Assembly: GCA_016647705.1 (NCBI GenBank)
Contig: JAENRU010000471.1
Coordinates: 124,001 to 188,000, forward strand
Source of the DNA: Eucommia ulmoides
Lineage: Eukaryota; Streptophyta; Magnoliopsida; Garryales; Eucommiaceae
DNA length: 64,000 nt
Direction: 5' to 3'
Made by a program: the position numbers and the translations under genes. Positions within the stretch are counted from its first letter, which is position 1. Every line of letters begins with the position of its first letter. Below are positions 27,508-60,925 of the stretch, one piece after another. Under the pieces are notes generated by a model. That model saw only the letters and a list, made by a program, of their open reading frames with translations. It was not told the origin of the DNA and ran no database searches.

Positions 27508-27512
27508 AACAT

Positions 27513-31735: not shown

Positions 31736-31806
31736 AGGTAGATTTCACAGAGAAATCATGAGAGGAACATAGAGGGAGAGAGCGTTCAGTGAAGATCTGG
31801 CTGGAA

Positions 31807-37003: not shown

Positions 37004-37766
37004 TGTTGGTGTCAAGAATTGGTTGGCGAACAGTATGGTCCGAGCACTCTCGGATCAGGGGTGAGGGTTACTAAACTCGATCCGCGTTGCAGCCGGGTCT
37101 GAGGATCGAATGGGCTTAAGTCCAGACCCGGGTCTTGGTTCTTTTCCTTGCTCCTGTCGTTGTCCGGGCTGAGCTCCTGATCATCACCTGCATAAAGAAC
37201 GACCGAGTTTTTCCCAGCAAGTCCTCTCCGGCATGAGAGTAAGGTTCCGGGGATAAAAATAGATCGGAGAGTTACTGTTGCCTTGACCTGTCTTACCGTT
37301 CAGAGGCAAAGTTTCTCTCTCTTGAATGTTTTTTCTTGTTGTCATAAAGTGTGGAGGAAACCTCCTATTTATAGGCGAAAGAGTGATTATCATAAGTAAT
37401 ATTAAGACCTTAAGCTCGGATTACCGATAAGCAGTCCAACGCGTGGATGACACAGAGGATTAGAGCCATGAGCCTAGGCCTTGGGCCCATCACTGTTGAG
37501 GATGAGGTCGACGACCGACCCCCCGAGGGCTACACGAGGCCCGCCCATCCACGGAGATTGGTCTGGGCACTCCAACCTTCAGCGGGCTGATAGCATTGAA
37601 CGGGAAGGCCCACACGAGAAGACCGATTTGGGCACACCGGGTTCACGTGGGCGGCCGTACACAGCTAACCCGGGCTGCCTATTTATCGGGCTAGAACGTA
37701 GGTCGGTCAATTGAATACGCGGCCTTACCGATGGACATGTAGAAGGGTCCAACTTTACCCATATCA
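37004..37766 (-). repeat. 3' LTR of the Tat-type element (left copy)
   Basis: Plus-strand ends TGTTGGTGTC and ACCCATATCA, 763 bp. Preceded by ATTAT and followed, inward, by the complement of the polypurine tract (gttaccccccaag). Confidence 0.94.
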
Positions 37767-38066
37767 GTTACCCCCCAAGCCTCTGCGTGGAAGTGGGACA
37801 CGAGGCGTTGTGGTTTTAGCGGGCAGCTCTCGCGAAGCGGACACCTAGTTGGAAGACAGAGCGGTCTGTTGGATCGGGATAACGCAGTCCAACTGGGATC
37901 CCTTGGTGTCTCCTGGAAGCTGAACCATCATGTCAGATGCGCCTTTTGGCTTCTCGAGGAAGCCAGACTATCAATCCGTCCGGATGCTTGACACGTGGCG
38001 GTGGTGTGAGAATCGGTGTTCTGTGAGCCGCATGATGAGACACGATATTTAGACTTCCCGGTACCC

Positions 38067-38074
38067 TATAAATA
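38067..38074 (+). promoter_or_regulatory. TATA box of the antisense gene in the Tat element
   Basis: TATAAATA lies 118 bp before the ATG at 38192, on the strand opposite to gag-pol, indicating an independent promoter for the antisense gene. Confidence 0.55.
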
Positions 38075-38191
38075 GACGATCCACTTTTCGAATTTCCTCA
38101 CCAGACTTTTTGCGAAAGCTCTCACCGACCTCCGGAGCACAGTACTCCTCCTACTCTTGTCTTCATTTCTCATCTTTTTAATTTCTTTTCT

Positions 38192-40566: not shown

Positions 40567-41050
40567 CTAGTTCTTTTTTTTTTATTATTATTATTTTTTC
40601 TTTTTCTTTTTGTATGGCCCAGCAAATAGCGGGCTTGTACCTTGCGTGCAATAGTCACGCTCTTTTTGTAGCTTTGACAAACGATCTGAATATAATATAT
40701 TTTTGTTCTTCTCTCTCTGTGTCCGTTGTGCTTGCCAAATGTTGATGTTTTTGAAAAAGAAATTTTAATTTTCACAAGTGGACAATGTTTGCCGAGCTGA
40801 GGAATGGGTCATGTGCCCGACATTCTTCACGGCCCTTAACTTTCACAAGTGGCCAATGTTTACCGAGCTGAGGAACGGTTCCTGTGCCCGGCATTCCTCA
40901 CGACCCTTTTTCCCAGTCGAGCAGTAGAGCTCGTGCTCAACGAGTTGTGGTGGTCGACTAGTGAAAAGCCTTCAATTGCTTGGGCCAAAGGGACCCAGGC
41001 GAGACGTCCTGAATGAATTGTTATGTGCCCGACCAATTTTTGTCCCTTGG
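40567..41050. other. Non-coding Tat internal sequence
   Basis: T-rich tail after the antisense gene, then two similar blocks (acaagtggacaatgtttgcc and acaagtggccaatgtttacc) near 40775 and 40845. It ends at the nested solo LTR insertion point. Confidence 0.5.
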
Positions 41051-42837
41051 TGTCACACCCCACCCCGGACACCCTTCATGTGGGGCCAGCATGACATCAA
41101 TATGACATCACCTATCTGACTAACCAACCACAATACGATAATATATAAATTTTTCATTTATATCACATATACACAATTCCATCTGATAGGGATACACCGT
41201 CCCAATTATAAGAACAACTAAACTAATCCCATGAATCTCACATAGATTCATCTCTGACACCTCATCTCAAAATTTCTCTCAATTGACTCTATCGCGAGAT
41301 CCACATAACTCTATCTAACGCCAGTAGGAGACCGACCGACTCCTAGCCATTTCACCTGCGAATGTACTGCCTTCTTAGTAAAATATTTTTATAATAATAA
41401 TAATTTATTCTGCAACATCTAAATGGATCAAGCTTAAATATGTAAACATCATGTAGCTCGTAAAAGTTTTCATAATATTAGCATTGAGAATAAAGCACTA
41501 TATATAAGTTCCATGCAAAATTATTTAGTATAAGAATCATGCCAATCACCATAATAAATAATAAATCACCCAGTATAAGCAAAATACCATATCTCAAAAC
41601 ATCCTCTCAAACACACACACGTTGTCCAGCCCTAGTGATCGTTTTAACCTCACGATCGGGAGTTTGCAACGGTACCGTACCATCCGTAGGATATGCCTTT
41701 CTACGAACACACATCACTCCGCCGAAGCGGATAATCACTGCGCAGTATAAACGTCTAACATCACTCTGCCGAAGCAGATAAACATCACTCCGCCGAAGCA
41801 GATAATATCACTCTGCCGAAGCGGATAAACATCACTCTGTCGAAGCAGATCAACATCACTCAATAATATCGTCTAATCAACATCGTCAAATCACCACATA
41901 ATTTTTAAAAACATCTAATTTAAATACAACCATTTTTCATCATATATATATATACAAATAATTTGGCAAGAAAACAGTACACTCACCTTGTTATCCGTTT
42001 TGCAAAACTGACACTGACCACACTCTATCTGGACGCCGATGCCTACGAACCTCTTTCCGAATCGTTTAACGGCCACGAAATGGGTTTTGGATTTTTCTAG
42101 GGTGGTTTATGCAAATTCTCCATTTTTTTTCTTCCTTTTTTTTCTTTTTTTTTCCCCCTCTGTTTTGGCTTCTGTTTCCTATTACAGCCCCGGCCAATCA
42201 CCCCCCTTTCTCTCTCTACCAACCACTCCGACGATCTTACTCACCGTCGACCGCCCTACACCAACGATCATCGACACACCACGCACATACACCATCCGAC
42301 CAACGACACACCCGCATGCACCTAAACGCCCGACGATCGACGCACACAGTCAACGACGACAACACACACACATACTCACCGGACGAACTGCCGATCCCAC
42401 ACACATTCATGTACACACGCTGAAAAACTGACCGAAACACCCACCATGAACTTCCAGACCACAACCAAACACACACACACAAAATCAAACTCACCTACTC
42501 TCTCTCTAACTCACCGCCGGTGATCAAAACTCACCCCATCGGATCACCAAACAACCGTCAAACAAACCGAACACACACACACACCAAGTCACATGCACAC
42601 ACTGATCACAGTCGAACACATACACAATCATACACTGAACACTCATACACACGCAAACCCACACGATTTCCGACCATCGATCACATATCGGCGAATCCCA
42701 CCGCCGATACTCTCCCTCTTTGTTTTCTGTTTCAGTTTCCTGTTACCCGACCAACGACGACTCACAAACCACCGCCAGCAAACCCCATACGATCGACGAC
42801 AAAATCCACCGATGGTCCTTACTCTCTCTCTTTCCCG

Positions 42838-42878
<41 letters not shown>

Positions 42879-43073
42879 CTTCGCTAGTTTTACTCTCTCT
42901 CTTTCCCGTTCTCTCTCTCTCTCTCCATTCTTCGCGAGTTTTATTCGATCCTTCTCCACCGTTCCACTGTCTACATATATATATATATACACACACACAC
43001 ACATATATGGGTGATCAATTGGCCGGCCACGCGTCCCGTTTCTCTCCCTCCGTTTCCACCGACTCAATCTATA

Positions 43074-43118
<45 letters not shown>

Positions 43119-43374
43119 ACACCAAACCCCCCCCTCAATTTGTCAAGTTTAATGTTTTTAAGATTTATAATTTGACCCCCAAAAACTTTTACATCACAAA
43201 TTGAATTTCAAAATCTGCCCCACTATTTTAGTTAGGATTGTAATTTAAATTCATTCTAAATTTTAATGTTTATGAAGATTGCAATTTATCCCCTTCATGT
43301 TTAAAAAAATTTACGAATTAACCCATCAAATTATAATTAAATCATAATTAACACCATCAACCCCGTCACTTCTG

Positions 43375-43441
<67 letters not shown>

Positions 43442-43486
43442 AAATGCGACTTAAATTATACGTATGTCCAAGGTCGGGGTCTTACA
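41051..43486. mobile_element. Nested solo LTR (chromovirus-like), 2.4 kb
   Basis: Begins TGTCACACCCCACCCC and ends GGTCGGGGTCTTACA, the TGT..ACA form of long LTRs in Tekay/Del-like gypsy elements. It is flanked by the exact duplication CTTGG (41046-41050 and 43487-43491). No gag-pol is present. It contains a cgaagc-ga-taacatcact minisatellite (41705-41865), CT repeats (42839-42930), and TA repeats (43076-43112 and 43380-43438). ORFs inside it are repeat-driven. It could instead be a small non-autonomous element, but no internal LTR pair is visible. Confidence 0.82.
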
Positions 43487-44205
43487 CTTGGACCATCGAA
43501 CGCTCCGTAGTCGGATACCTTGCCCCCTAGATAGGTAAAGTAGCCCATACCAGTCGGGCTTCAATGCTGTCTTACCGGGTGTTGGTGGCCTTTGACTTTG
43601 ACTTTGCCCCCCAGACGATGGACCAGCTCGGTTCTGGGCTCGTTGATCTTCTCCTGGATGGGACCTGATCTGGTTCTGTCTTAAAGGGAGAATAGATTTG
43701 GGAGGGCTTACCCTGGCCTCTCGGCAACCGAAGGGCTACTCCTTCCTGCCCTATTATATATTTTTTTTAGGATTTTTGCCCCCCAGACGATTTGTCGAGC
43801 TTGGTCTTTCTGAGCTCACTGATCTTCTTTAGGGTTTGACCCGTGAGTGGAGTATTTTATGAAAAAGAGAAATTCATTGAACCGAAAACGCATTCTTTTT
43901 ATTTAGCATAATATGTTGCAATACAATTCGCACAAGATCAAAATACAAAATGTTGAGCAAGTTGTGTAGTTGTCAAGAGATGATTTTGTAGTACAAGGTC
44001 CCCTGAGTGGCACTCCTTCCTCTGTTTCCAAGTTGTACGTGCCTAGCCGGACTACGCCAACAACGCGGTACAGACCCTCCCAGGTGGGTGCTAGCTTTCT
44101 GGCGTTTTGCTCCTTCGTCGCTAGAGTGACCTTCCGTAGGACAAGGTCCCCTAGGTCAAAAGAGCGAGGACGGACGCGACGATTGTAGTACCGTGCCGTC
44201 CTCTG
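43487..44205. other. Tat internal sequence downstream of pol
   Basis: Continuation of the Tat element after the solo LTR, non-coding on both strands, with repeated tgccccccagacgat motifs (43605 and 43785 regions). It separates the integrase end from the antisense gene. Confidence 0.5.
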
Positions 44206-44963
44206 TTAGCAAGCGGCCTGGTGGATTCGGGCTCGTTCTTTTATTTCTTCGAGGAGGTCGAGGCTCAGAGCCAGGCCGACTTCGTTCTCAGTTGTGCCAA
44301 ATGGGTGGGCGGTGTGGCGAGATGACATTCCAATCTCTACGAGGATCACGACCTCAGAACCAAATGTCATCGCGAAAGAGGTCTCGCCGGTCGGTGTGCG
44401 GGCTGTTGTGTGATAAGCCCACAGCATGGGATACAAGTCCTCCACCCATAACCCCTTTGATTTGTCCAGTCTAGTCTTTAGATTCTGCAAGATGGTCCGG
44501 TTAGTGACTTCAACCTGTCCGTTCGCCTGAGGGTGGCTGGGGGAGAAAAATTTTGTTTTGATCCCAAGCCCGACGCATAGCTCAGCGAACAGGTCGTTAT
44601 CAAACTGCTTTTCGTTGTTAGAGATGATGGCCCTTGGGATTCCAAACTTGCAAATTACGTGCTTCCATACAATGTATCGAATCCGTTGCTTAGTTATCGT
44701 CGCCAGTGGTTTGGCCTCAACCCACTTTGTGAAGTAGTCAATAGCGACGATGAAAAAATTTCTCTGGCCAGACCCCAGGGGAAAGGGGTTGAGGAGGTCG
44801 TTACCCTACTGGGCGAACGGCCATGGGCTGGACATGGGGACGAGCTCACTTGGAGGGGCGTGTGGGTGCGCGGCAAATCGCTGGCACTTGTCACACCTTT
44901 TCACAAATTCCCCTGCGTCCTCCAGCATTTTAGCCCAGTAATACCCGTTCAGGAGCAGCTTCT
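44206..44963 (-). pseudogene. Tat integrase (degraded)
   Basis: Minus-strand frames show the zinc-binding end (KRCDKCQRFA), the catalytic core beginning IVAIDYFTKWVEAKPLATIT, then IISNNEKQFDND, and SHPQANGQVEVTNRT. The second catalytic Asp is in an altered context (SNNEKQF instead of the usual SDNGxQF). The C-terminal 94 residues (44206-44490) are open. A stop at the RSLV/KLLL junction (44962) and another after WPFAQ break the frame. Confidence 0.85.
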
Positions 44964-45729
44964 AGACTAAGGATCTGTCCCCCGAGTAATTTCCGCACAC
45001 TCTCTCGTGGACCTCCCTCATAACATACTCGGCCTCTTCAGGTTGGAGACACCGCGAATACAAATCGGAGACGGACTTACGGTAAATGACCCCGTCGATG
45101 AGCGTGTACCACGCTGCCTGGTACCATATTCTTCGGGAGTGGGCATGATCGTTGGATAATGTCCTGTCCACGAGGTAGCTCATTATGGGATCCATCCAGG
45201 TCGGTTTCGAATTCAGGGCACATATGATTGCGGGCTCATCTGAGGAGGTCGTGCTCGGCTCAGCGAGAAATTTGACAGGGACCGTCCTCTTGAGCGTATA
45301 CTCAACAGCCAATGCCAGATTAGGTAGGGCGTCAGCATGCCTGTTCTTTTCTCGGGGTATTTGCGTGACTCTAACCTTCTCAAAGAGCTTTGATAGGTCT
45401 TTAACCCTCTCCAGGTAGGCTACCATGCTTGGGTCCTTTGCGAGGTAATCACCGTTAACCTGGTTGACCACGAGCTGGGAATCGCTCATTACCAAGAGGG
45501 ATCTTACATTAAAATCCCGGGCTAAACGAAGCTCGACCAACAATACTTCGGACTCGGCCTCGTTGTTGGTAGCTCGGAATCTGAGCCTGAGGGCGTACTC
45601 GATCTCTTCTTTATCTGGGGCCACCAGGACCATACCGGCCCCTGAGCCGCTCTGATTGAAAGATATGTCGATAAATAGTTGCCACGAGTTGGGCCCAAGG
45701 TCGTCATGGTGCTTCCCTAGCTCGCCCAA
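44962..45729 (-). pseudogene. Tat second RNase H-like domain and integrase start
   Basis: A 255-residue open stretch. The RNase H fold residues are visible: Asp in LFIDISF, Glu in NNEAESE, Asp in SDSQLV and Asp in HADAL. The end enters the integrase zinc region (REVHERVCGNYSGDRSLV), where the second zinc His appears as Tyr. An extra RNase H before integrase is typical of the Tat lineage. Confidence 0.85.
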
Positions 45730-46998
45730 GACGTTGGCCGTTTTTGGCCTTTCAAGGGTTTGTAGGAGTTTACCCTGGTTGGTGGCTGTTTCTTCCTCGG
45801 GGAAGGTCAGCTCGGCAATGAAGTTGGCGAGGACCTATCCCTTGATTGCTGTCCTGGGGCGATACTCGATGTGGACTTGGCCTAACTCCAGGCTATACTT
45901 CATCAACCTCCCAAATATGTCAGGTGAATGGAGGATCTGCTTTAATGGCTGGTCTGTCAAAACCACAATCGTGTGGGCTTAAAAAATATTGGCGTAGTTT
46001 TCTGGAGGCGATCAACAGGGCATAGGCCAGTTTTTTGAACTTCGTGTACCTCATCTCTACGTCAGTCAAGACGCGACTGGAGTAGTAGACCGGGCTCTAG
46101 ACACCGGCGTCCTCCCAGACTAGGGTAGTGCTAATAGCCATTGGAGAGGCCGCTACGTAGAGGAGCAGGTCATCGCCCTTTTGAGGCATAGTTAGCAGAG
46201 GAGCCGACGAGAGATATCTTTTAAGCTCCACGAAGGCACGGTCAGACTCGTCGTTCCATTCAAATGCCTTGTTCCCCCGTAGAATTTTGAAGAAGGGTAG
46301 GCATTTTTTGGACGATCTGGAGATAAACTGATTCAGGGAGCCAACTGACCTGTTACCATTTGAACCTTTTTCTTATTTTGGGGAGGCACCATGCCGAGCA
46401 CTGCGCTGATCTGGTTGGGGTTGGCGTCGATGCCTCGCTGAGACACCATAAACCCTAGGAATTTACCCGCAGACACGCCAAAAATACACTTGTTTGGATT
46501 TAGCCTCATGCGATGAGCTCGGAGTTTGTCAAAACAGGCCTGGAGGTGGGTGAGGTGGTCCTCAGCCCGAACGCTCTTCACAAGCATGTCATCAATATAT
46601 ACCTCCATCGTGCTACCTATTTCCTCCTTAAACATTTTATTGACAAGCCTCTGATAAGTGGCTTCGGCATTGCGGAGGCCAAAGGGCATGACTTTGTAGC
46701 AGTAAGTATCTCGGTCGGTAATGAAAGAGGTCTTACTCTTGTTCGAAAGATACATGTGGATTTGGTTGTAACCGCTGTAAGCATCGAGGAAGCTAAGTCG
46801 CTCGTGCCCCGCCGTCACGTCGATCACAATGTCGATCCTCGGGAGCGAAAAGAAGTCTTTCGGGCAGGCTTTGTTCAAATCTTTAAAATCGACGCAAAGT
46901 CTCCATTTATTGCCAGCTTTAGGGGCCAACACGACGTTCGCGAGCCAGTTCGGGAACTTTACCTCTTCAACGACGTCCGACCTAACGAGCTTATCCAT
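45730..46998 (-). pseudogene. Tat reverse transcriptase and first RNase H (degraded)
   Basis: The 221-residue open part (46333-46998) contains RLCVDFKDLNKACPKD, the active site VYIDDMLVKS and the segment FLGFMVSQRGIDANP. Beyond 46333 the frame shifts, and the connection and RNase H continue in other frames with several stops (for example near 45842, 45980 and 46100). Confidence 0.88.
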
Positions 46999-47620
46999 TT
47001 TCTCTTCAATTATTTTTTGCCGGACAGGGGGTAGTGGGCATCGGCGTGCAGTCGGTGCACGACAACACTTGGATCGATACCGGGAAGCTCGTTGTGCGAC
47101 CAGGCAAACACGTCGTAGTTATTTGCCAACAGTTCGGTGAGGTCAGTCCGCTCTTTCGGGCTCAGCCGAGCTCCGAGCCTCACCGTTCTCTCCATGATAG
47201 CCGGATGAATTGAGACGTTAATCAGATCTTCGTGGGGCCGAAGGACGGACTCATCGTCGCGTGGATCGTCGATCGGAACCAGTCCCGTCCCTTGGCCCAA
47301 GACCACGAGTTCCTCGTTTAAATGAGGGGTTGACTACTCGGGCCCCGACTGTAATTGCTATTTTTTCTCCAAGGCCCTTCTTGCACAGGACCGTGCAACT
47401 TTTTGGTTTCCCTGAACTTCTCTTACCCCAGAATCTGTAGGGAACTTCATTTTCTGGTGATAGGGGGAGCATATAGCTTTAAGGGCGGCCATAGTGGGTC
47501 ACCCCATAATTGCGTTGTATGGCAACGGCCTATCCAGTATCAGAAACTTGGACCAAATGATGGCGACATCAAGGCTCAAACCAACGGTGACGGGCAAAGA
47601 TACCCAGCCAACCGAATTGA

Positions 47621-47842
47621 CTACGTCGCCACCAACCTGACGAGTGGGGACCTGACGGGCTGCACAGAGCTCGCCTCTATGCCCATTTTGTCGAAGGCCC
47701 CCTTGAACAGAATATTTACCGAGCTTCCACTGTCAACGAGTATCCTCGCCATCTTGAAATGGTTGATTAAGGCTGCGATGACCAGGGCGTCGTCGTGCTG
47801 AACGTGCACCCCCACTAGATCGGCCTCGCTAAATAAAATCAC
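47621..47842 (-). pseudogene. Tat aspartic protease fragment
   Basis: The open minus-strand frame contains ILVDSGSSVNILF, the D-S/T-G active-site motif of gypsy proteases in the Tat form. It is followed by degraded linker sequence toward RT (46999-47620). Confidence 0.8.
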
Positions 47843-48373
47843 GTTGTGGGAGGCCGCATCTATTGTGCTAACCTCATAGACGCCCTGCTTTGTTTTTCTC
47901 TTACTCTTGCATTCGTATCGCTTCCGGGAAGAAGAGATTTTCCCCGCGAAACCCAGGACACTATGGATGACGTTTGTTTCGCCGTCGACCCTCAGCTCGG
48001 AATCGTCGTCAGCTCAGTCACCACGGGGTCGATTTTGGTTATCATTTTGCTTTCGGCAATGTCCTCGGCGGCCATCGCGGTGATCATTTGAGCCTGCCCT
48101 CTCCTCGTCAGGTCGGCGAACGTAATTCTTGAAGTAGCCTCTGCGGATGAGGACTTCAATCTCTTCCTTTAACTGGAATCATTCGTCGGTGAAGTAACCG
48201 TTATTCCTGTGGAAGTCGCAGTGTTTATCAATCAATTTCCCGAGGGGCTTCCTCCTAAGGAGAGGTGCGGGCGAGAACAGGCCTTGTTCGGCGTTCTCAG
48301 AGAAGATAGTGGCGATAGAAGAGGTCAAGGGGGTATAGACGACCTAATGGACACCCGTCGGTGGCCTCCGGTC

Positions 48374-49773
48374 TCAAGGTAGCGGTCCCAACCTCCCTTC
48401 TTCCTGGAGTCTCCTAGATGCTTGGGATCGGCTCTCTCCCTCATCGGCTCGGGATTTCTTCTTGAGCAGGTCTTCCTTCTCTTTTGTGATTTTATAGACG
48501 AGGTCGGCCTTATAGAAATTGGTGTCGAGGTCTAGTGTTTCGCAGAGGCTAGAGGTTGGCCTGGAATTCAGATCATACAAAAGCCTTCTGTGCCTGAGCC
48601 TGCTAATGAAAGCATTGAGTGCCACCTCATCAGAAACTCCTTCACACGCGAGGGACTCCATCCAAAATGGGTGCACGTAATCAACGAGGTTCTCTCTTTC
48701 TTCTTGCTTGACACCAAGGCGGTGAGACGCCATTTTTTGCCTGCGACGTGATCGAGTGAATCTCTCCATAAACTATTGTTTGAGCTGGAGGAATGTGGCA
48801 ATTGAGGCCGGTGGGAGATCGTTAAACCACGACCTCGCCGGACCAGTCAATCCTAGTGGAAAAAATTTGCACCTAATGGCATTTGTGGCAGCATGTACAT
48901 CCATGTGGGAAACGTACATGGAGAGGTGATCCAGAGGGTCGGTCGTCCTATCATATTGGGCGGTTGGCGGGTTGGGAAAGCATTACGGAATGCCTCTTCG
49001 GTGACTTTCGTAGTGAAAGGAGACCTGACTCCGGCATGAATCCCAAGAGCTACCCCGGTATTGCGCATGAGACTAAGGGCGACTTCCATCTCTACCAGAC
49101 GTTGCTCCATTGTGGTTGTCACCCTCTCCGGGGCGACAATCTGACTGGCAGCAGGTCTGGGCTCCCTCCTATGAGCTGGCGCAAGGGAGTGGGAGTCTAC
49201 ATCCTTGACTTGAGTGGATTGGTGCTCAGAGTGCTCCCAACGACTATACTCACAAGCTGGTGGTGATCCTGGTCGGTTGTGTGATCGTTGACCGTGAGCT
49301 GATCTGGAAATGCTTGCCAAAGCAACTGGGGGGTCTAGGTCCCGATCCTTCAGTGCTCAATTGACGACCTGAGACCGAGCCCGCGCCATCTGCCCATGAG
49401 AGCCCAATGCTCGATCATCGAATTCTTGTGGGCGGTCCCTCTCCTCAGCAACGTGGAGGTCTGGTCCTCTTTCGACCGGGGGTAGAGGTATGCGAAAGAA
49501 GAGAATGTCGAAGTATTCTTGGAACTTGCCGAGTTGGCGTTCCACATTGTCGAGCCTGGCGGCATCGACTGCCTCGGACGCTTGTCCCGGGCAGAGCTCC
49601 TGTATGTCGACGTTTCGCCTTTCGGAATCTGCGCCTTCGTCGTTTGTCACTCGACGGGCAATGGCTCGAGTCTCTGGCCTTGGAGCCTGCGACATATCCT
49701 CCCCGGGCTGTCTATTCATCGGGTGGATTATGTTGTCTGATTGGTTGGAGTGCCCAGACCTTGTGTTCATCAA
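48374..49773 (-). pseudogene. Tat gag (frameshifted)
   Basis: Starts MNTRSGHSNQSDNIIHPMNR at 49773 and reaches a stop at 49357. It resumes in other frames at 48853-49320 (disordered, Arg/Pro-rich) and 48374-48769, where WFNDL-type and NLVDYVHPFWMESL sequence mark the retrotransposon capsid domain. At least two frameshifts or stops break it. Confidence 0.8.
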
Positions 49774-49823
49774 ACCCTAGCCAGGCGGGTAGCTGATGAT
49801 TCAGATAAGGCTTTTTGTAGCGT

Positions 49824-49844
49824 TTCCCACAGACGGCGCCAAAC
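49824..49844 (-). other. Primer-binding site of the Tat element
   Basis: Minus strand reads gtttggcgccgtctgtggg directly after the 5' LTR. The TGGCGCC start is complementary to a tRNA 3' CCA end. The non-autonomous element at 51.8-59.0 kb has nearly the same site (tttggtgccgtctgtggg). Confidence 0.75.
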
Positions 49845-50612
49845 TGTTGGTGTCAGGAACTGGTCGGCCAACAGTATGGTCTGAGCACTCTCGAATCAGG
49901 GGTGAGAGTTACTAAATTCGATTGCTTCCGCGTTGCAGCTGGGTCTGAAGATCGAACAGGCTTAAGTCCAGACTCGCGTCTTGGTTCCTTTTCTTGCTCT
50001 TGCCGTTGTTCAGGCTGAGCTCCTGATCGTCACCTGCACAAAGGATGGCCGGGTTTTTCCCGGCAGGTCCCCTCTAGCGTGAGAGTAAGGTTCCAGGGAT
50101 CAACATAGGTCGGAGAATTACTATTTCTTCGACCTGTCTGACCGATCAGAGGCAAAGTTTCTCTCTCTAGAATGTTTTTTCTTGTTGTCATAAAGTGTGG
50201 AGGAAATCTCTTATTTATAGGCGAAATAGTGATTATCATAAGTAATATTAAGACCTTAAGCTCGGATTACCAATAAGTAGTCAAGTGTGTGGATGACACG
50301 GAGGATTAGAGCCATGGGCTTGGGCCTTGGGCCCATCACTGTTGAGGATGAGGTCGGCGACCGACCCCCTGAGGGCTACACGAGGCCCGCCCGCCCACGG
50401 AGATTGGTCTGGGCACTCCAACCTTCAGCGGGCTGATGGTGTTGAACGGGCAGGCCCACGAGAGGAGACTGGTTTGGGCACGCCGGGTTCACGTGGGCTG
50501 CAATACACAGTCAACCCGAGCTACCTATTCACTGGGCTAAAAGGTAGGTTGGTCAACTGAATACGCGGTCTTACCGACGGACACGTGGATGGGTCCAACT
50601 TTACCCATATCA
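49845..50612 (-). repeat. 5' LTR of the Tat-type element (right copy)
   Basis: Plus-strand ends TGTTGGTGTC and ACCCATATCA, 768 bp, clearly alignable to the left LTR but with scattered substitutions, so the insertion is not very recent. Followed by ATTAT. Confidence 0.94.
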
Positions 50613-50732
50613 ATTATCAATCTTTAATCTATACTTTTTTTATTCGATGATTTCAATAAATTATGATTAATTCTAGATTTTTCACTGTGCGATTTTCAAT
50701 AATTTAATCCATTTCTCAATTGAATATCTTCG

Positions 50733-51731: not shown

Positions 51732-51778
51732 TGTTGGGTTAAGAGTTGACAAAAATATGGAAATATAAAATATGCAAA

Positions 51779-52219
51779 AGTCTTTGTCCAAACCAATGAT
51801 CCATATACGGATTCATCAAGTGAAAGATCAAATAACTTAATTCACACTTAAAGTGGGAAAGCCAAAAGGGCGTAACTTCCCACTAATTGTGTAACTCCCC
51901 ATTGAATCCCTATTAAATAGCAATATAATAAGGGAAGACCAAGTCATTAAATACTAGGTTATCCATCTCCAACGGTCATAATCTGCTCAGTCTATAAATA
52001 AGGAAAATATATCACATTATTTTGACAATACAGCTTTTTGCCTAATTCCCATGAATGGACTGATTTATTCTCACGCCGGAAGTTCTTTGGCCGACACCAC
52101 ACCGGTGTCCCCTTATAATTAATCTGTTTTGCAAGTTAGGAGGGCAAAAGATTCAAATTACGGAGATTTCTGGCACATGAGGAGCTGTTACATGTGTCGG
52201 GAATTTTTTGGCAACATCA
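51779..52219 (+). repeat. 5' LTR of the non-autonomous element (5'-truncated)
   Basis: Alignable to 58590-58995 from gatccatatacgg to ggcaacatca. It lacks the first ~110 bp present in the right copy. TATA-like tctataaata lies at 51991-52000. The adjoining copia LTR has also lost about 22 bp at this junction. Confidence 0.85.
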
Positions 52220-52239
52220 TTTGGTGCCGTCTGTGGGAA
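52220..52239 (+). other. Primer-binding site of the non-autonomous element
   Basis: tttggtgccgtctgtggg directly after the LTR, differing from the site of the neighbouring Tat element by one C/T change. Confidence 0.7.
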
Positions 52240-53979
52240 ATCGAGCAAAAAGTCTCAAAATTCCCATCAATATCAATTTGTGATAGTCGAATCAAGCCAC
52301 TAGAGCTCTCCTCACAGAATCTCTCTCTTCGCAAGATATGAATGTCGGTGCTGTGACCATCATGAACCATCGGCAAGCTCTACGATTGCATCGTCAGCTT
52401 TGACGGTGTCCAGATCTGAGGCCTATGCTGCCATCGCAAGAAAAATTGTGAAGGCGGTGGTGTTCCTGAATCCGATGTCATTGGCGTATCCAAACCGCGC
52501 CTTTGATCCGATCTGGAATGAAACTACTGATCCCCGATCTAAACCGCAACTCTGTCATTGCACATTACCGCCGATCGTCGGTTGCCTGCGACCAGAGATG
52601 GTGAAGCGAAATAGTAGGGGTTCGATCTCTAACAACTATGGAACAATGATGGAATTAATTCTATTCTGGTGAAAAACACCGTGTTGGATATGCAACTGGT
52701 CAGTTGTTTTTTACTGTACTCTGTCCAGATCTAAGGCGACCACCGCCTTCATTCTGGATCTGCAACCGTTGATTGTCTCCAATGTGTTCAATTCCACTGC
52801 TTCGATTGTCTTTGAATGTTGTTCTAGACTCGCCTGAGAAACTGTCGTCGTTGCTGGCAGAAATAATGGATCGGACCGATGATTAGAAATTGAAGGCGGT
52901 ATTTCCCGTTTGATAATTCCATCTCTGCTATGAACGTCACCGGAGGCGGGAATATTCTATCGGATTCCAAAGTCGACGACTTGAAAACCTATCTCAGCTC
53001 CACAATCCACTGGAAACTACTCTAGACGGAGTCGGATTTCCCGAATCGTTTCAGATTGAAGATTGTATGAGGCGACAGTGTTTTTACCAGTTTGTTGATA
53101 ACCGATGCCGCTGCTGGCAAAGTGATAAAGAAGTTGGAAGCTCCGGTATGCCGACTGCTCAAATGCTATTGAAATGGGCAAGGAAGCAGCAGTTGTTGTA
53201 GAAGTGATATGAACATGCTGAACATATCACCAATACACTAAAGTAGTGTCTACAATGTGAATAAAAAGATGGGTATGGATTATGGAAAGGTTAACCTAGG
53301 GAAAATTACACTAAGGGCCCTGAGGTTACATTTATATTTGCAGTTTTTCCCCTAAGGTTTATTTTTGAAAATAAACTTATAAATTATCTAAGGCTAATTA
53401 CAGCTTTACCCCTCTAAAGTTTATATTTGAAAATAAACTTATTATTGTGGTTTAGGGATAAATACATTAAAGCCCATGTGGTTGCAATTATATTTATTGT
53501 TCTTATCCTTAAAGTTTATTTTTAACATAAACTTATAAATTATCGCTAACGTCTTGAAAAGTCAATGACAAATCCCCGAGTATGAGAGTAACTCCCTAGC
53601 GGAAGAAGTTGAATCTGAGGGTGCCTCCCCAATAATCTGAGGTAAAACAATCATATTTACAGTTTTACCTCCATAGTAGATTAATGCCAAACATGCATGT
53701 TCATGGCACTGGATGATATTACTTCACAAAAATGGTTCCTCATGATCATCTACTTTTATTGCATAATGACTTGTATATTGAACATACTTGCAACAAGCTC
53801 CTACGGTTACTATGTTTCATAGCCAAACATATATAAATTCAGTGTTGTTAATGGTATACTACATGATGCTTATTATTGACACCCGATGTTGTAACGACAT
53901 TCTAATTTTACCGTTCGTCAAATATCAACAAAGTTGATCTCAATTTTGACGACGATCTCCAGGGTACAGACCTTGATCT
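52240..53979. other. Interior of the non-autonomous element, unassigned part
   Basis: Mixed GC-normal and AT-rich sequence. ORF 52400-52672 and a frame starting MNVTGGGNILSDSKVDDLKT at 52931 look gene-like but were not recognised; they may be further captured pieces. From 53290 the phrase aattacacta-ggg-cctgaggt repeats with ttgaaaataaactta (53295-53530), and it returns at 55760-55920 and 56230-56340. Confidence 0.4.
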
Positions 53980-53981
53980 TC

Positions 53982-54117
53982 TAGTGGACGCGAACTCATG
54001 CGATCATTCCCGGATGTATAAGTTCAAGGTCAAGAAGTGCTCACATGGTAGGACACATGACTGGACCAATTGTCCGTAGGCTCATGCTAGCGAAAAGGCC
54101 CACCAGAGAGATCTACC
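53982..54117 (+). pseudogene. Captured fragment of a tandem CCCH zinc-finger (TZF) gene
   Basis: The reading frame contains SRMYKFKVKKCSHGRTHDW, then TNCP, a stop in place of one residue, and AHASEKAHQRD. This matches the plant RR-TZF signature (MYxFKVxxC, GRSHDWTxCP, AHPGEKARRRD), including the C-x5-H-x4-C-x3-H spacing. Known family members bind AU-rich mRNA and act in stress and hormone responses. Here it is an internal fragment with a stop (TAG at 54077), no start and no second finger, so it is not functional. Confidence 0.85.
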
Positions 54118-54264
54118 AACCATTATTGCTCAGTCAAGACTTTTACTGCATTTTCTAACAGTTGTCTTATGTGTATTAATACTTAGAGTATGATTCATGC
54201 CATTATTTTTGACTAACTTTGTCATGCAAAGTGTGCGTACAGTCGCTATTTTTAATACTTGCTG

Positions 54265-54462
54265 CATCGGTGCTATGTTAATACCCTTGCGAGCTTCATT
54301 AGCATTAGTGGTAGCAACAATACCTTTGAGAAAAAGGAAGGCAGCATCAACCATATCCATTTTCACTCCATTTAGTGCTTCCTCAACAAAAAGAATATCC
54401 AACATATATAGGACAACAGGCTGGTCAGCACCCGGCATATACTCTCTCTCCCTCGCCATCAA
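54265..54462 (-). pseudogene. Captured fragment of cytosolic malate dehydrogenase
   Basis: The minus-strand frame reads [13 protein letters not shown], then [31 protein letters not shown] and KGINIA. This follows the N-terminal NAD-binding half of cytosolic MDH (GADQPVxLxMLDI, ALNGVKMELVDAAFPLLKG). After NIA the sequence leaves the family. It lacks the dinucleotide-binding loop, catalytic His and substrate residues, so it is a dead fragment. It lies in opposite orientation to its neighbours. Confidence 0.88.
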
Positions 54463-54490
54463 CTATTCAACTTGAGTTGAAGAGAGTTAG

Positions 54491-54685
54491 ATGGCGTCAT
54501 AATTGAGCTACAGGGGCCACGAGACGCAACCAATGAGCGAAGCATACTCTTCGAAGCCTTGAAAGCCATGGTTCATCGAGTTTCGGCTGATTCAGTACAT
54601 GCTCCGTGAGCAGCGTCTTCTGCTCATGCTTGCTGGCATTGCAATCTCCACTCTCTTCTTTGTTGGTATCTCTTTTTCACGATAG
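54491..54685 (+). pseudogene. Captured 5' fragment of a UDP-glucuronate decarboxylase (UXS) gene
   Basis: Begins ATGGCGTCA then a stop. Later in frame come SEAYSSKP, a stop, KPWFIEFRLIQYMLREQRLL and LMLAGIAISTLFF. The order matches the N-terminal cytosolic tail and signal anchor of Golgi UXS1/2-type enzymes (MASEL..., KPWF, YMLREQRLxFVLxGIAIAT), which make UDP-xylose for cell-wall polysaccharides. Only the membrane-anchor exon is present, with two stops and no NAD-binding catalytic domain. Confidence 0.82.
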
Positions 54686-54710
54686 CTAGCCGTTGCAATC
54701 AGAAAGAACA

Positions 54711-54863
54711 AATACAACGGAATTAATCCAGATTTATGTTCAAATGTACGGATCCAAAACTGTTTCACTGTTTTGGGTGACGACTGTATCACTGTAAAGA
54801 GCGGTTGTGAGCAGTACGAAATCAGATTTGCGAAACCCATGCAACACCTGATCGTCTCATCAC
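54711..54863 (+). pseudogene. Captured fragment of a GH28 polygalacturonase-like gene
   Basis: The frame reads NGINPDLCSNVRIQNCFTVL then GDDCITVKSGCEQYEIRFAK and PMQHLIV. This matches the GH28 core, GINPDSCxNxRIxDCxIxSG and GDDCVAVKSGWDEYG, including the catalytic Asp pair. The fragment covers about 50 residues of a protein usually above 400, so it is inactive. It follows the UXS fragment by only about 25 bases. Confidence 0.88.
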
Positions 54864-55930
54864 CACATACGAGACGTCACGACGCTCCAACAACACATCC
54901 GACGCCATCCAGATATGAGGCGTTCGATCCCTGCATTAAGATTGCACAAACTGTCTCTTCGAACAGATCGCCACCGCCTCAAACGAGTGACTAGGATCCA
55001 TATTGACGAACTCGGCATCGTCGCTAAAGCAAATGGATTCAGCCACCGCCATCTTGATTGAAACCGGGTTACATTCTCGACCCGTAATGCTATTAATCGA
55101 TGGATTTACAGTTTTCTTCGTCTACCCCTACATGTTGTTGGAAGATCGATTTTCCAGAACCAGAACGACGATCGCCGGCACCTCTATCGTCGTTGAGGCT
55201 GGACAAGGGAGATCAACAACAACGATGGTCAGATCCAGAGCGAATCAGCTTCAGAGCGATTCAGCCAAAATCAAAGCTTCTGGAAGAAAACTGTTCACGA
55301 GGAGATCGAGCGGCGGAATTCGCTCAACAAACGCGCGGAAAATAAATCAAAGCTGTTAGGATTTTTGTCATAACAACCACCGTGATCTCCGCCGCGGACT
55401 TCCACAACTCAAATAATAATAACAACAGCTCGCCAGATACTAATTTCACCACCTTGAGTCAGAGCAACCTTTGTGATAGCCGGTGCCGTCGAGATAAAAA
55501 AAAAAATTAAAGCTTTAGCTACTGTACTGCGTAATGACTTGACAACTTCTTCACCGCCTCCTACACCAACCTCAAGAACTGTTGCCGCCGGCGGAGGATT
55601 CGTATCCGACGTACGACAGGGAAGACAACTTGCAGTCATGAGGATGCAGATTAATAATCCACAATTGAGCAAATAGAGGGATTGGTGATACATGGAAACA
55701 CTGGACAAACACACAGTGGCGGCGGCTGCAATTGCAAACAGAAACCAATTGAAAAAGTAACCTAGGGCTAATTACACTAAGGGTCCTGAGGTAATATTAT
55801 ATTTGAAGTTTCATCCCCTAAAGTTTATTTCTCAAAATAAACTTGTCTAGAGTTAATTACTCTATGAACCCTGAGGTAATAATTATATCTGTGGTTTTTA
55901 CCTTCAGATTTATTTTTTTACTGAAATTGT
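54864..55930. other. Interior of the non-autonomous element, possible further gene pieces
   Basis: GC-normal stretches with open frames (55003-55359 plus strand, 55409-55714 minus strand) that do not match a family I recognise. The long frames start with MDSATAILIETGLHSRPVML on the plus strand. The end of this stretch repeats the aattacactaagggtcctga motif. Confidence 0.35.
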
Positions 55931-55944
55931 CGTTGACATCTTGA

Positions 55945-56232
55945 TAAGTCATTTACAAATTCCCCGGGTATGAAGGTAACTCCCCGGCGGACATTTACAA
56001 ATTCCTTGGGTATGAGGCTAACTCCTCGGTGGATGTTTACAAATTCCCCGGGAATAAGGGTAACTCTCTGGCAGACGTTTACAAATTCCCCAGGTATGAG
56101 AGTAACTCCCTGACGGACATTTACAACTTCCTCGGGTATGAGGGTAACTCCCCGGCGGACGTTTACAAATTCTCCGGGTATAAGTTGGCGGACATTTACA
56201 AATTCCCTGGGTATGAGGGTAACTCCCCGATA
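55945..56232 (+). repeat. 42-bp tandem repeat with an open 14-residue peptide unit
   Basis: About seven units of 42 bp (one shortened to about 27 bp) built on gtttacaaattccccgggta and gagggtaactccccggcg. As 42 is divisible by 3, the unit keeps one frame and reads ADVYKFPGYEGNSP-like, open over 56029-56238. Single degenerate units recur near 53575, 56446, 56478 and 57355. Confidence 0.8.
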
Positions 56233-56716
56233 ATTTGAGGTAACAATTATATTTACAATTTTACCCCAAGAAGTTTATTTTTCAAACTTATGTGATTTAG
56301 GGCTAAATACACTGAAGTCCTTGAGAATTGCGGAATATTATATTTTGTTGATTTAATACTTCAAGGCAACCCATTCCACGTTCATAACTCGTTCGGCAAG
56401 CAAACCAGTTATGAAGGAGGGCAAAGAGGAAGAAAAGAACACGCAATTCCCCAGGTATGAGGGTAACTCCCTGGCGGACATTTACAATTCCCTAGGTCTA
56501 AGGCTAACTGTTCAGCGACGCTTACATCATGGATCACCAACGAAGTCTATGATTGTTATCGACAAAGTCACAAATTCAGAGGGATAAAAAACCTGTCAGC
56601 AAGAGTTGGAAGACCGAAACTTATGACGTGAGACGTCGCATCCGTCTAGATATGAGGCCTCCATTGTCGTCATCCCGATCGGTGACCCTAGGTCAATTCA
56701 GACCGCCGATCTGATT

Positions 56717-57100
56717 ATGCACTGCCGATCTCTATTATTGCATGTTGTTGTTTCGGCAGCTGAACTGCTGCCCAGACTTTTCAGACATGGATTTGAATTT
56801 GTAAACACTGCTGCTGAAAACACTATTGAGAGTCTAATATTGTTTCTCTTGGAAGAATTTATTCAATTTGTGCAAAATATATTTTGCAACCGCAATGTAT
56901 TTCAAAACATATTGGCAGGCATGATAGCTTCTATTCTAGACAACTTGGATTCCAGTGTCTGGCGGTACAATATGTCAGTTGTTACCCCCTAAGGCCCTTT
57001 TTGGCTTACTTTTCACGTTATGAGCTGGATCTCAAGAGGCAAACTCATCCGGCTCTTGAATTGAAGGACTTCTATACCGAAAATGATTGGAGTTCTTAAG
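56717..57100 (+). pseudogene. Unidentified gene-like fragment inside the non-autonomous element
   Basis: Open frame to 56992 with ESLILFLLEEFIQFVQNIF and ILAGMIASILDNLDSSVWRY; a shift then gives PFLAYFSRYELDLKRQTHPA and LELKDFYTENDWSS. Amphipathic helical composition and regular codon use suggest a captured gene fragment, but I do not recognise the family. Confidence 0.4.
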
Positions 57101-57547
57101 ATGAAACAACTGTGGAAACGATTCCACTCTGTTGAAAAACACCGTGTCGGATCTACAATCGGTTTACCTTTTCCAATGTTTCTCTATTCAGATCTGTGGC
57201 AAGAGTACCTCCGGTAGCCCTTGCAAGAGTATAGTGAATATTTTATTGTTGATATGGCGGCTGCTGTAATTCAAAGGGAATACAATTGAAAAAGTTAACC
57301 TTGGACAAATTACGCTATGGACCCTGAGATCACTCCTTTGTAGCAGAAGATAGATCATCTATAAATTTCCTGAGTATAAGGATTACTCCCCGGCGGCATA
57401 AGACAGATCAACTTACAAATTCTTTGGGTCTGAGAATGCCTCCCTGATCAAGAAACGTCTGGTGTCGAATCACCAAGTGTAAAAATTGAAGAATCAAGCT
57501 CGCTCATCAATGCAAGAAACAATTAGTGTAGAAACTAAATGTACTCC

Positions 57548-58250
57548 AACTGAGCACATCAGCTCAGCACTAACTGGGTGCCTCAGCCCAGAAGCAAACT
57601 GAGTTCGCTAACTCAGACGCTAACTGAGCACATCAGCTCAGCACTAATTAGGCGCCTCAGTCCAGAAGCAAACTGAGTTCACTAACTCAGACGCTAACTG
57701 AGCACATCAGCTCAGCACTAACTGGGCGCCTCAGCCCAGAAGCAAACTGAGTTTGCAAACTTAGACACTAACTGAGCACACCAGCTCAGCATTTAACTGG
57801 GCACCTCAGCCCAGAAGCAAACTGAGTTCGATAAACTCAGACGCTAACTAAGCGCACCAGCTCAGTATTTAACTGGGCACCTTAGCCCAGAAGCAAACTG
57901 AGTTCGCTAAACTTAAACGCTAACTGAACACACCAACTCAGCATATAATTGGGCACTCAACCCAGAAGCAACTCAGTTCGCTAAACTCAGACACTAACTG
58001 AGTATATAACTTCAACATATAATTGGGCACTCAACCTAGAAGCAACTCAGTTTGCTAAACTCAGACACTAACTGAGTATATAACTTCAGCATATAACTGG
58101 GCACTCAACGCAGAAGCAACTTAGTTCGCTAAACTCAGACACTAACTGAGTATATAACTTCAGCATATAACTGGGCACTCAACCCAGAAGCAACTTAGTT
58201 CGCTAAACTTAGACACTAATTGAGTATATAACTTCAGCATATAACTGAGT
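57548..58250 (+). repeat. 74-bp tandem repeat array, ~9-10 copies
   Basis: Units such as aactgagcacatcagctcag, cactaactgggcgcctcagc, ccagaagcaaactgagttcg and ctaactcagacgct repeat with a 74-bp period at the left, shrinking to about 68-70 bp at the right. Each unit contains small palindromes around ctgag/ctcag. The array ends about 230 bp before the right LTR and looks untranslated. Confidence 0.88.
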
Positions 58251-58478
58251 ATCTCGCTCGACAACTCTCTCGCAATAGAGCTCGTCAGTTCTTCAGCCTG
58301 TCGGCTATCTCACTCGACAACTCTCTTGCAGCAGAGCTCGTCAGTTCTACAGTTCATCAACTCACTCACAAAAAAGCTCACTCGATAAATATTTAAAACT
58401 GATAATAACTGAGTATAAAAAGAGAATGTGACCTTTCGTCTTACTTTTTTGAATCAACACTCAGGTTAGGAGGACAAA

Positions 58479-58995
58479 TGATGCATGAAAAATTCCCACT
58501 ACCCAAGAGAAGCCCATCACAATAATCCCAAAGCTCAAAACTAGCCGGGTCATGGACATTGGTCCAAATCGATGATCCATATACGGATCCATCAAGTAAA
58601 AGATCAATGAACCTAATTCACACTTAAAGTGGGAAAGCCAAAAGGGCGTAACTCCCCACTAATTGTGTAACTCCCCATTGAATCCCTATTAAATAGCAAT
58701 ATAATAAGAGAAGACCAAGTCATCAAAGACTAGGTCACCCATATCTAACGGTCATAATATGCTCAGTCTATAAATAAGGGAAAGGTATCACATTATTTTG
58801 ACAATACAGTCTTTTGCCTAATACCCATGAATGGACTGACTTATTCTCACGTCGAAGGTTCTTTGGCTGACACCACACCGGTGTTCCCTTAGAACTAATC
58901 GGTTTTGCAAGTCAGGAAGGTAAAAGATTCAAGTTACAGAGATTTCTGGCATATGAAGAGCTGTTACATGTGCCGGGAATTTTTTGGCAACATCA
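58479..58995 (+). repeat. 3' LTR of the non-autonomous element
   Basis: 517 bp, from TGATGCATG to GGCAACATCA, preceded by a purine-rich tract. It abuts the interrupted copia LTR, which resumes gatacacaagatataacg. Confidence 0.88.
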
Positions 58996-59521
58996 GATAC
59001 ACAAGATATAACGTGGTTCGGTACAATTTGCCTACTCTATGGGCGATGAAGAAAATTACACAAAATGAGGCAAGTTCTTGAATTGAAGAACTAACAACAA
59101 AATCTGCCCAAAAATCTCTCTCAACAAATATACTATCTTTGGGTATAGACAAACAAGATTCTACTATAGAAGTTCCAATACACCAATACTGAGAGACTTT
59201 TTACTCTACTCTTCAACGTCTGCAGCTCTGCCATTTTATAAGCCAATGAGGATGGAAAAGAAGAAAACATCTCTGATTTGCGATAGCTGCAAATCAAAGA
59301 AGATCTACAATTTTTGACAAAATTCATTCCTCTATTCTTTAAAAGCTACTGTCTTCTTCTACATTCCTTCAACAATAATGGTCGCCAAACCAATAAAAGA
59401 GAAACATAATTCTCTTTCTTTTTTAAACAAAACCCACAAAAGGCCAAAAGAAAAACCCAATTTCAAAATCCGTCGGACAAACTCACTTATTTTGACAATT
59501 CTGAAATATGGAACCCCCACA
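58996..59521 (-). repeat. Main part of the interrupted copia 3' LTR
   Basis: Alignable to 60310-60925. On the minus strand it would begin TGTGGGGGTTCC, next to the purine-rich ggcaaagaa. The missing end of this LTR lies across the nested element at 51732-51778. Confidence 0.75.
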
Positions 59522-59679
59522 TTCTTTGCCACAGTAAGTGTTTCACAAGTCTGTGCTTTTCATCCGAGAACGACCAACCTGTATTTTTTGAAAATTCCCT
59601 TCCACGGACTGAAAGAGTACTAGCTCGTACTCCACTAAATTATCTCATCTGAAGTTTCACCTGCTTCTGAGACCCCGAA

Positions 59680-60215
59680 GCACCTGTAGTACCAACTGTA
59701 GCACCTTGAAGAACATAAAGGTCACCAAACTTTTCCCTGTCAACGAATAGGCCTGCAGCCTGATCATCACTACCTTCGTTATTTAACTAAGTCTTCAACT
59801 CTTTCGAGTTTAAGGAAGCCTTGACGTCGGTCAAGGAAATTGAATCTCGTCCATATAACATAGAATTAACAAATGAATCATATGAGATTGGTAGTGAACA
59901 TAAAAGGATAAGAGCTTGGTCCTCCTCGTCCACCTTGACGTCAATATTCTTCAAATCCATGATAATTCGATTAAAATTATCAAGGTGCTCGTGTATGAAC
60001 ATACCCGCCTCCATCCTGAGAGTGTACAACCGTTGTTTCAAATACAACCGGTTCGTGAGAGATTTCGTCATATACAAGCTTTCTAGCTTGTCCTAAAGCC
60101 CCTTAGCTGGTTCTTCAAATATCAATTGTTGTCACAAAAGTGCGCGTATTTTCATACGCCACAAACTGAAGTCATTCTCACCATGAAATTTCTCTATTTC
60201 ATATTTTGCGAGAGC
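59680..60215 (-). pseudogene. Copia gag and pre-integrase remnant
   Basis: The minus-strand gag start MALAKYEIEKFHGENDFSLW (from about 60217) continues as the 96-residue open piece 59787-60077, with KQRLYTLRMEAGMFIHEHL and LNNFNR-type gag sequence. It then reads EKFGDLYVLQGATVG, a piece of the GAG-pre-integrase domain. Integrase core, RT and RNase H are absent, and two stops interrupt gag. Confidence 0.8.
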
Positions 60216-60242
60216 CATTGAACCTTGGGCTCTGATATTATT

Positions 60243-60925
60243 TGTTGGGTTCGGAGGTGACAAAAATATAGAAATGGAGAATATGTGAAAGTGGAAAAAA
60301 TGGCGAATACAAAAGAGACACAAGATATAACGTGGTTTGGCACAACTTGCCTACTCCATGGGCGAAGAACAACGAATAGTTTTACTAATATGAAAAAAAA
60401 TTACACAAAAGGAGATAAGTTCTTGAACTCAAGAACTAACAAAAAAATCTGTTCAAAAATCTCTCTAAAAAAATATATTATCTTTGGGTATGAACAGACA
60501 AAATTCTACTATAGAATTTCTAATACACCAATACTGAAAGATTTTTCACTCTGCTCTTCAACGTTTGCAGGTCTGCTATTTTATAAGCCACTGAGGATGA
60601 AAAAGAAGAAAACATCTCTGATTTTTGATAGCCGCAAATCAGAGAAGATCCACAATTTTTGACAAAATTCATTCCTCTATTCTTCAAAAGTTGTTGCATT
60701 CTTCTACCTTCCTTTAACAATAACGGTCGTCAAACAAATAAAGGAGAAACATAATTCTCTTTTCTTTTTTAAACAAAACCCATAAAAGTTGTTGCATTCT
60801 TCTACCTTCCTTCAACAATAACGGCCGCCAAACAAATAAAAGAGAAACATAATTCTCTTTTCTTCTTTAAAGAAAACTCATAAAAGGCCAAGCATAAAAA
60901 CTCAATTTCAAACTTGTCGGCCACC
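60243..60925 (-). repeat. 5' LTR of the deleted copia element
   Basis: Starts TGTTGGGTTCGG on the plus strand (its 3' end on the sense strand). It contains a ~103-bp direct duplication (gttgttgcattcttctacc units at 60680 and 60787) absent from the other LTR. The outer boundary near 60925 is diffuse, and no target duplication was found. Confidence 0.7.

Follow-up and report, generated by a model that had tools for sequence, protein, structure and literature searches.

The shuffling of several genes is usually credited to Helitrons, which are reported to carry up to nine gene fragments (PMC6431247), and to Pack-MULEs, with MULE-derived genes described as arising from several parental sequences (PMC4858842). 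LTR elements that hold gene pieces are reported in the hundreds from maize B73, rice, and sorghum (PMC2774510, PMC3726574), and their captures are mostly described as single genes. For rice, one survey counts 1,318 elements in its section 6, in which 1,343 non-TE proteins are found; its abstract, by contrast, lists 672 captured genes for rice and assigns the figure of 1,343 to sorghum (PMC3726574). The maize survey, with 425 fragment-bearing elements, identified none with pieces of several standard nuclear genes "under the conditions employed"; the comparison there was with rice genes, and so its sensitivity differs from that of the present analysis (PMC2774510). The richest case that we found is maize Bs1, an LTR element reported to hold three host genes (PMC13317346).

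Here we describe an LTR element in a 64,000-nucleotide stretch of Eucommia ulmoides DNA (the window). Like Bs1, it unites several host genes, but it has pieces of six, two of them reversed, together with repeated AT-rich modules; six pieces on two strands are more than is usually reported for LTR-type elements. A comparable nesting of one intact gene and four fragments in an LTR element is described for Ji-3 at maize orp2, although the nested insertions there added 66,588 nucleotides (PMC1560396), whereas the short pieces here lie within about 3 kb. The long interior, the tandem repeats before the 3′ LTR, the non-autonomous forms, and the antisense frames reported for Retand/Tat-type Ty3/gypsy elements (PMC11963269) are also reminiscent of this locus, as is a primer site held in common with the gypsy element of the window. 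Unlike those elements, the present one has no visible pol, and its pieces come from ordinary host genes rather than from a TRP28 frame.

Structure and insertion site of the element

The two detected LTRs are direct repeats in the same orientation (Table 1) and differ by 28 transitions and 9 transversions over a 423-bp part (K2P 0.094). The sequence behind the left LTR was called a primer binding site because it resembles the site of a Ty3/gypsy element elsewhere in the window (49824-49841, minus strand), from which it differs by one mismatch. This gypsy element has gag, RT, two kinds of RNase H-type domain, and integrase, and the two elements are alike over about 50 columns spanning the LTR end and the primer region. 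Kinship of the LTRs themselves was rejected, as their alignment score of 22 was not above those of shuffles (up to 26) and no similarity beyond shuffles was seen outside the primer region, which is thus the sole link to the window gypsy. Scanning viral contigs for the primer-site pattern gave no matches.

Table 1 Features of the element and its flanks (window coordinates)
Feature	Position	Strand	Details
Left flank, copia LTR end	51732..51781	-	82% to 60243-60292; counterpart of 60293-60314 missing
Left LTR	51783..52219	+	437 bp; 90.8% identity to 58559-58995, ungapped
Primer binding site	52222..52239	+	TGGTGCCGTCTGTGGGAA; starts 2 bp behind left LTR
Block common with 57101-57200	52638..52737	+	70% identity
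AT-rich module A1	53282..53628	+	First 98 bp 84% to A2; 60% over 358 columns
TZF (CCCH, AtC3H23-like)	54011..54103	+	Pfam PF25512 E 1.8e-12; 1 stop
Cytosolic malate dehydrogenase (MDH)	54265..54447	-	PDB 5nue E 9.2e-16; residues 27-87/332; no stop
UDP-glucuronate decarboxylase (UXS)	54491..54661	+	Codons 1-57 from start codon; 2 stops
GH28 polygalacturonase-like	54677..54859	+	Pfam PF00295 E 2.2e-4; PDB 3jur E 0.033; 1 stop near start
Non-specific phospholipase C	54975..55190	-	Pfam PF04185 E 1e-5; PDB 8hav E 5.3e-4; 2 stops
AT-rich modules A2 + A2b	55748..56526	+	Contain 42-bp tandem repeats
BIG (auxin transport protein)	56732..56998	+	PDB 9qt9 E 1.5e-17; residues 302-391/5141; 1 stop near end
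AT-rich module A3	57255..57368	+	71% to 55717-55826
74-bp tandem array	57522..58265	+	
Purine run AAAAAGAGAA	58417..58426	+	10 purines, then TG; 132 bp upstream of detected 3′ LTR
Right LTR	58559..58995	+	437 bp; 90.8% to left LTR; start may be further upstream
Right flank, remainder of same copia LTR	58996..59479	-	83-85% to 60314-60923, two pieces

Across six frames of the element, no transposon family was matched in Pfam at E ≤ 1, nor any transposon protein in PDB at E ≤ 0.5. The 6.3 kb between the LTRs, free of transposon protein matches in both databases, is a LARD-like interior, that is, several kilobases without gag or pol. The original prediction had framed the element by two LTRs, a primer site, a purine tract, and the absence of retroviral genes, and all of these are borne out except the purine tract as stated. 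Only one run of at least nine purines, AAAAAGAGAA, occurs at 58301-58600, and no purine tract adjoins the detected 3′ LTR. This nearest run is a candidate polypurine tract that would fit a longer LTR with a truncated left copy; the left LTR has probably lost its first part.

The element is nested in a copia LTR, which both outer flanks continue, and the minus strand beside the right flank carries a copia-type gag. At the left junction 22 bp of the copia LTR are absent. No target-site duplication (TSD) was seen at the LTR ends (GTCTT on the left, GATAC on the right), which may stem from a deletion, because these 22 bp of the target are missing. The lack of a duplication and of a purine tract adjoining the detected LTR would also fit a situation in which the two LTRs derived from separate insertions and the intervening DNA was not one element. 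We consider this extremely improbable, as the LTRs share one orientation, the primer site lies right behind the left LTR, and the flanks are a single copia LTR.

Host-gene pieces in the interior

The interior holds at least six host-gene pieces, four forward and two reversed. Four of these (TZF, MDH, UXS, and GH28) had been predicted originally, and all were recovered, with MDH reversed as claimed and GH28 the weakest and least secure. The phospholipase C and BIG pieces were beyond that list and bring the number of host genes from four to at least six. The evidence thus supports the predicted nature of the locus, a decayed non-autonomous LTR element with several host-gene pieces in both orientations, with a larger count. 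The serial capture by the element that was also proposed then is a putative route.

The searches differed in the pieces they recovered. In Pfam, the MDH piece matched no MDH family, UXS and BIG gave weak unrelated families only, and the PDB scans recovered neither TZF nor UXS. The UXS piece was matched in a protein search of 5.8 billion sequences (E 9.5e-8, 54% identity); when the frame carrying TZF, UXS, and GH28 was searched, UXS alone came back (1 of 2660 candidates), and the GH28 piece by itself matched none of 14 candidates. The Pfam match of GH28 is under the cut-off (20.8 versus 22.9 bits). In a control Pfam scan of 7.2 kb elsewhere in the window (8000-15201), one place matched, a RING finger (best E 2.1e-9) that is perhaps an exon, beside one further, chance-like match (E 0.14). 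Inspection by eye of the six frames of 52220-53300, 54860-55760, and 56500-57300 led to no additional gene being named.

Search for ends of possible nested DNA transposons

Many short pieces from different genes on both strands are in the style of Helitrons and Pack-MULEs, and the pieces could have been collected beforehand by one or more such transposons; the LTR element, or an ancestor of it, would then have received them by insertion and served as a container. The placement of the AT-rich modules, each behind a different segment, is in keeping with this idea, as related elements with common ends would show such a pattern. So are 24-nt arms, 83% complementary, that lie on either side of the five-piece segment (at 53417-53440 and at 55821-55844). 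Both arms, however, are palindromes inside A modules, and the best inverted match, at palindromes of the A modules, had an E of 0.003, and 2 of 20 shuffles did as well or better. A scan of 52900-57500 (exact seed of 8 bases, up to 4 mismatches, TSD of 8-10 bp) found no 16-bp arm pair with a duplication of that length. Pack-MULE TIRs with their TSD, expected at 9-11 bp, were not seen, although decayed ends would escape such a scan. Helitrons are marked by a 5′ TC and by a 3′ hairpin with a CTRR end; two Helitron-like 3′ ends were found, both in the 74-bp tandem array, against an average of 0.4 (0-2) in shuffles. GC content gives no guide either, with 200-bp windows over the pieces at 0.36 to 0.50 and a whole-window mean of 0.38.

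Several candidates were set aside in the course of these searches. The Helitron-like site at 57644 is a variant unit of the 74-bp array, the palindrome where MDH and UXS meet (54454-54496, E 0.18) scored no better than shuffles, and the notion of GC-rich gene-bearing stretches was dropped given the range above. Overall, the element resembles Pack-MULEs and Helitrons in its several short pieces of different genes but differs in being bounded by LTRs and in having no TIR or Helitron 3′ end clearly above chance. The original prediction had named a nested Helitron or MULE as the finding that would refute it; no such ends stood out here, although decayed ones may have escaped us, and we regard a nested origin as possible but less likely than not.

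Age and route of capture

Of 61 residues in the MDH piece, 23 differ from PDB 5nue, whereas the per-lineage divergence of 0.047 derived from the LTRs predicts 6 (2-11); as 5nue is presumably an Arabidopsis protein, true differences between the host and Arabidopsis inflate this age estimate. The piece looks older than the insertion. Four of five measured pieces lie within the first third of their protein, and the midpoints of the five average 0.195 (P 0.002 if placement were uniform). This is a small sample of five of the six pieces, in which TZF was left out for want of a full-length donor and the positions of GH28 and phospholipase C were taken from distant homologues. Placement toward the 5′ end and the apparent age of the MDH piece together suggest that capture was probably at the DNA level and before the insertion. 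The reversal of two of the six pieces also supports a DNA route, and the A modules, which are more diverged than the LTRs (60-71% identity over their length and 84% at best, against 91%), support a capture older than the insertion. A DNA scan with MDH as an intron test, run on prokaryote assemblies, returned 9 loci, all bacterial by title.

Two other routes were weighed against these data. Reverse transcriptase can switch templates, and LTR elements are described as acquiring foreign sequence in this way (review PMC13317346); switching onto co-packaged host mRNAs would accord with aligned pieces that are without long inserts. Such switching would yield sense pieces, however, whereas MDH and phospholipase C are reversed, and the pieces come mostly from 5′ parts rather than from the poly(A) side; we hold this route to be distinctly unlikely. 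Gap filling from outside templates has been proposed for animal DNA transposons (PMC8277862), and the pieces could similarly be filler DNA from break repair in this single copy after its insertion. That is very improbable, since the MDH piece appears to predate the insertion and the pieces sit in two segments parted by modules more diverged than the LTRs.

We therefore give about even weight to a history in which a LARD-like LTR element with a primer site of a Ty3/gypsy lineage captured the mosaic as DNA, was then carried by its LTRs, nested in copia, and decayed. An ancestor of the present copy would have gained the host-gene pieces as DNA, through gap filling or template switching in repair or replication or, alternatively, from captured DNA transposons whose ends have since vanished. 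The LTRs would next have moved the entire mosaic by reverse transcription, with enzymes probably supplied by a gypsy partner. The present copy would then have entered the copia LTR and decayed, and a deletion at the left junction would have taken the 22 bp of target, probably together with the opening part of the left LTR. If it was retrotransposed in this way, a six-gene mosaic on two strands would show that RNA-copied elements, too, can build chimeras from unrelated genes and disperse them.

AT-rich modules as possible points of exchange

Each AT-rich module follows a different segment, and two such segments carry gene pieces. An unlikely, more specific account is that the family stacked cassettes: separate members would each have had a single segment with the shared AT-rich module and its 42-bp repeats behind it. 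Jumps of reverse transcriptase from one co-packaged RNA to another at these modules would then have joined the units head to tail as G1-A1-G2-A2-G3-A3. If this were true, the LTR family would put together pieces of unrelated genes, and the repeats would be the places of crossover; the repeated modules offer a testable point of exchange. Apart from the modules, 52638-52695 is repeated at 57101-57158 with a z of 16.5 (60 shuffles).

Pieces of six gene families in one LTR element

The interior of the LARD-like element holds pieces of six unrelated gene families: a CCCH zinc-finger protein (TZF), cytosolic malate dehydrogenase (MDH), UDP-glucuronate decarboxylase (UXS), GH28, non-specific phospholipase C and the auxin transport protein BIG. 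The original prediction had named the first four, with MDH reversed, and all were recovered; the phospholipase C and BIG pieces are additions. MDH and phospholipase C lie on the minus strand and the other four on the plus strand. Matches are strong for TZF (E 1.8e-12), MDH (9.2e-16), UXS (9.5e-8) and BIG (1.5e-17), and good for phospholipase C (Pfam E 1e-5, PDB E 5.3e-4). The weakest piece is GH28, with a Pfam E of 2.2e-4 (below the cut-off), a PDB E of 0.033 and no match in a separate homology search. These values vary with query length, as whole-frame queries gave 0.024 for GH28 and 0.0023 for phospholipase C.

No single method caught every piece. Pfam did not recover MDH, UXS or BIG, the PDB scan did not recover TZF or UXS, and a protein search with the frame containing TZF, UXS and GH28 matched UXS only. 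Within the aligned stretches we find one stop codon in TZF, two each in UXS and phospholipase C, none in MDH, one close to the start of GH28 and one close to the end of BIG. The same Pfam scan gave three places at E≤0.024 and another at 0.23 in the element, against one real-looking place and one match at E 0.14 in a control of equal length (8000-15201). That place, a RING-finger match at about 14430-14550 (+; best Pfam E 2.1e-9), is perhaps a host-gene exon.

Architecture and insertion site

Features of the element (window positions)
Feature	Position	Strand	Basis or content
Left LTR	51783-52219	+	direct-repeat comparison
G1	52220-53281		
G2	53880-55747		five gene pieces inside 1.2 kb
G3	56530-57254		BIG piece
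74-bp tandem array	57522-58265		shortly 5' of right LTR
Right LTR	58559-58995	+	direct-repeat comparison

As predicted, two LTRs (a direct pair, 437 bp each, 90.8% identical) enclose no recognisable retroviral gene: six-frame scans of the 6.3-kb interior (Pfam E≤1; PDB E≤0.5) matched nothing among transposon proteins. The predicted primer site is likewise present, 2 bases 3' of the left LTR, with a single mismatch to the site of the Ty3/gypsy element at 37004-50616 (-). Some 50 columns can be aligned between the two elements across the LTR end and primer region, and their LTRs as such share no likeness exceeding shuffles. The gypsy element has LTRs that are 87.6% identical. Its gag, integrase and reverse transcriptase are accompanied by RNase H-type domains of two kinds, paired RNase H domains being a mark of the Tat lineage. 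The predicted purine tract was not confirmed at the detected LTR: none adjoins the right LTR, and the best purine run, followed by TG, lies 132 bp upstream. Elsewhere, a 77-bp stretch at 4382-4458 resembles the LTR of the element over the latter's downstream portion and may be the remnant of a related LTR; a pattern search around it gave no primer site.

The element sits within a copia LTR whose sister copy lies at 60243-60923. Both belong to a copia derivative (-, 58996-60923 plus 51732-51781) with a copia-type gag (Pfam PF14223, E 6e-23) between its LTRs and too little room there for pol. At the left junction, 22 bp of the target LTR are absent, and no target-site duplication of the element was seen. 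One deletion at the left end would fit both observations and the lack of an adjoining purine tract, if it took away the first part of the left LTR together with its duplication and the 22 bp of copia sequence.

Internally, the order is LTR, G1, A1, G2, A2/A2b, G3, A3, 74-bp array, LTR. Members of the AT-rich A series are mutually related (60-71% over their length), with 84% identity between the first 98 bp of A1 and A2. G1, in which no gene was named, shares a 100-bp block with G3; the remaining comparisons among G1, both G2 halves and G3 stay within shuffle range. An array before the right LTR is of a kind reported for Retand-type elements (PMC11963269).

Origin of the pieces

A nested transposon, either a Helitron or a type with arms and a target-site duplication, could have brought the pieces, making the LTR element container rather than carrier; the original prediction had itself raised a nested Helitron or MULE. 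We found no inverted arms with a duplication, the best inverted matches fall on A-module palindromes, with 2 of 20 shuffles doing at least as well, and a scan for Helitron-like 3' ends gave two, both inside the tandem array. These results make such a source less likely, but it may still apply, since transposon ends decay and the Helitron scan covered 3' ends. An imperfect palindrome (54454-54496), not above shuffles, lies at the head-to-head junction of reversed MDH and forward UXS.

LTR divergence is 0.094, or ~0.047 per lineage since insertion. At 0.047, 6 (2-11) differences would be expected in the MDH piece, which differs from PDB 5nue, an Arabidopsis protein, at 23 of 61 residues; 23 would need ~0.2. 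The gap is an upper estimate, as the 23 take in host-specific differences, but capture preceding insertion is still the likelier order. Along the donor proteins, four pieces sit at 0.07-0.17 and GH28 at 0.57, giving a mean of 0.195 (P 0.002 if placement were uniform); this was measured in the matched chains, a bacterial-type enzyme for GH28, and for five of six pieces, TZF having no full-length donor. Capture from sense mRNA predicts neither these positions nor two reversed pieces in six, whereas DNA-level capture is compatible with both.

Maize Bs1 carries pieces of three genes (PMC13317346). A survey of maize B73 counted 425 LTR elements containing gene fragments and, under its conditions, detected none that combined fragments of two or more standard nuclear genes (PMC2774510). 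Helitrons hold up to nine gene fragments (PMC6431247). A limited search of open-licence literature on transposable-element gene capture turned up no LTR element carrying six such pieces.

Other features of the window

An uninterrupted CDC45 reading frame (5717-7513) shows 86% identity to its best matches; the top named ones are from Sesamum, Nyssa, Buddleja, Lonicera, Paulownia and Cornus, all asterids, so this plant DNA probably comes from an asterid host. In a copia element at 21067-27508 the LTRs are 93% identical and there are frames for gag, integrase and reverse transcriptase, and a long repeated frame at 30766-31741 is rich in threonine and histidine.
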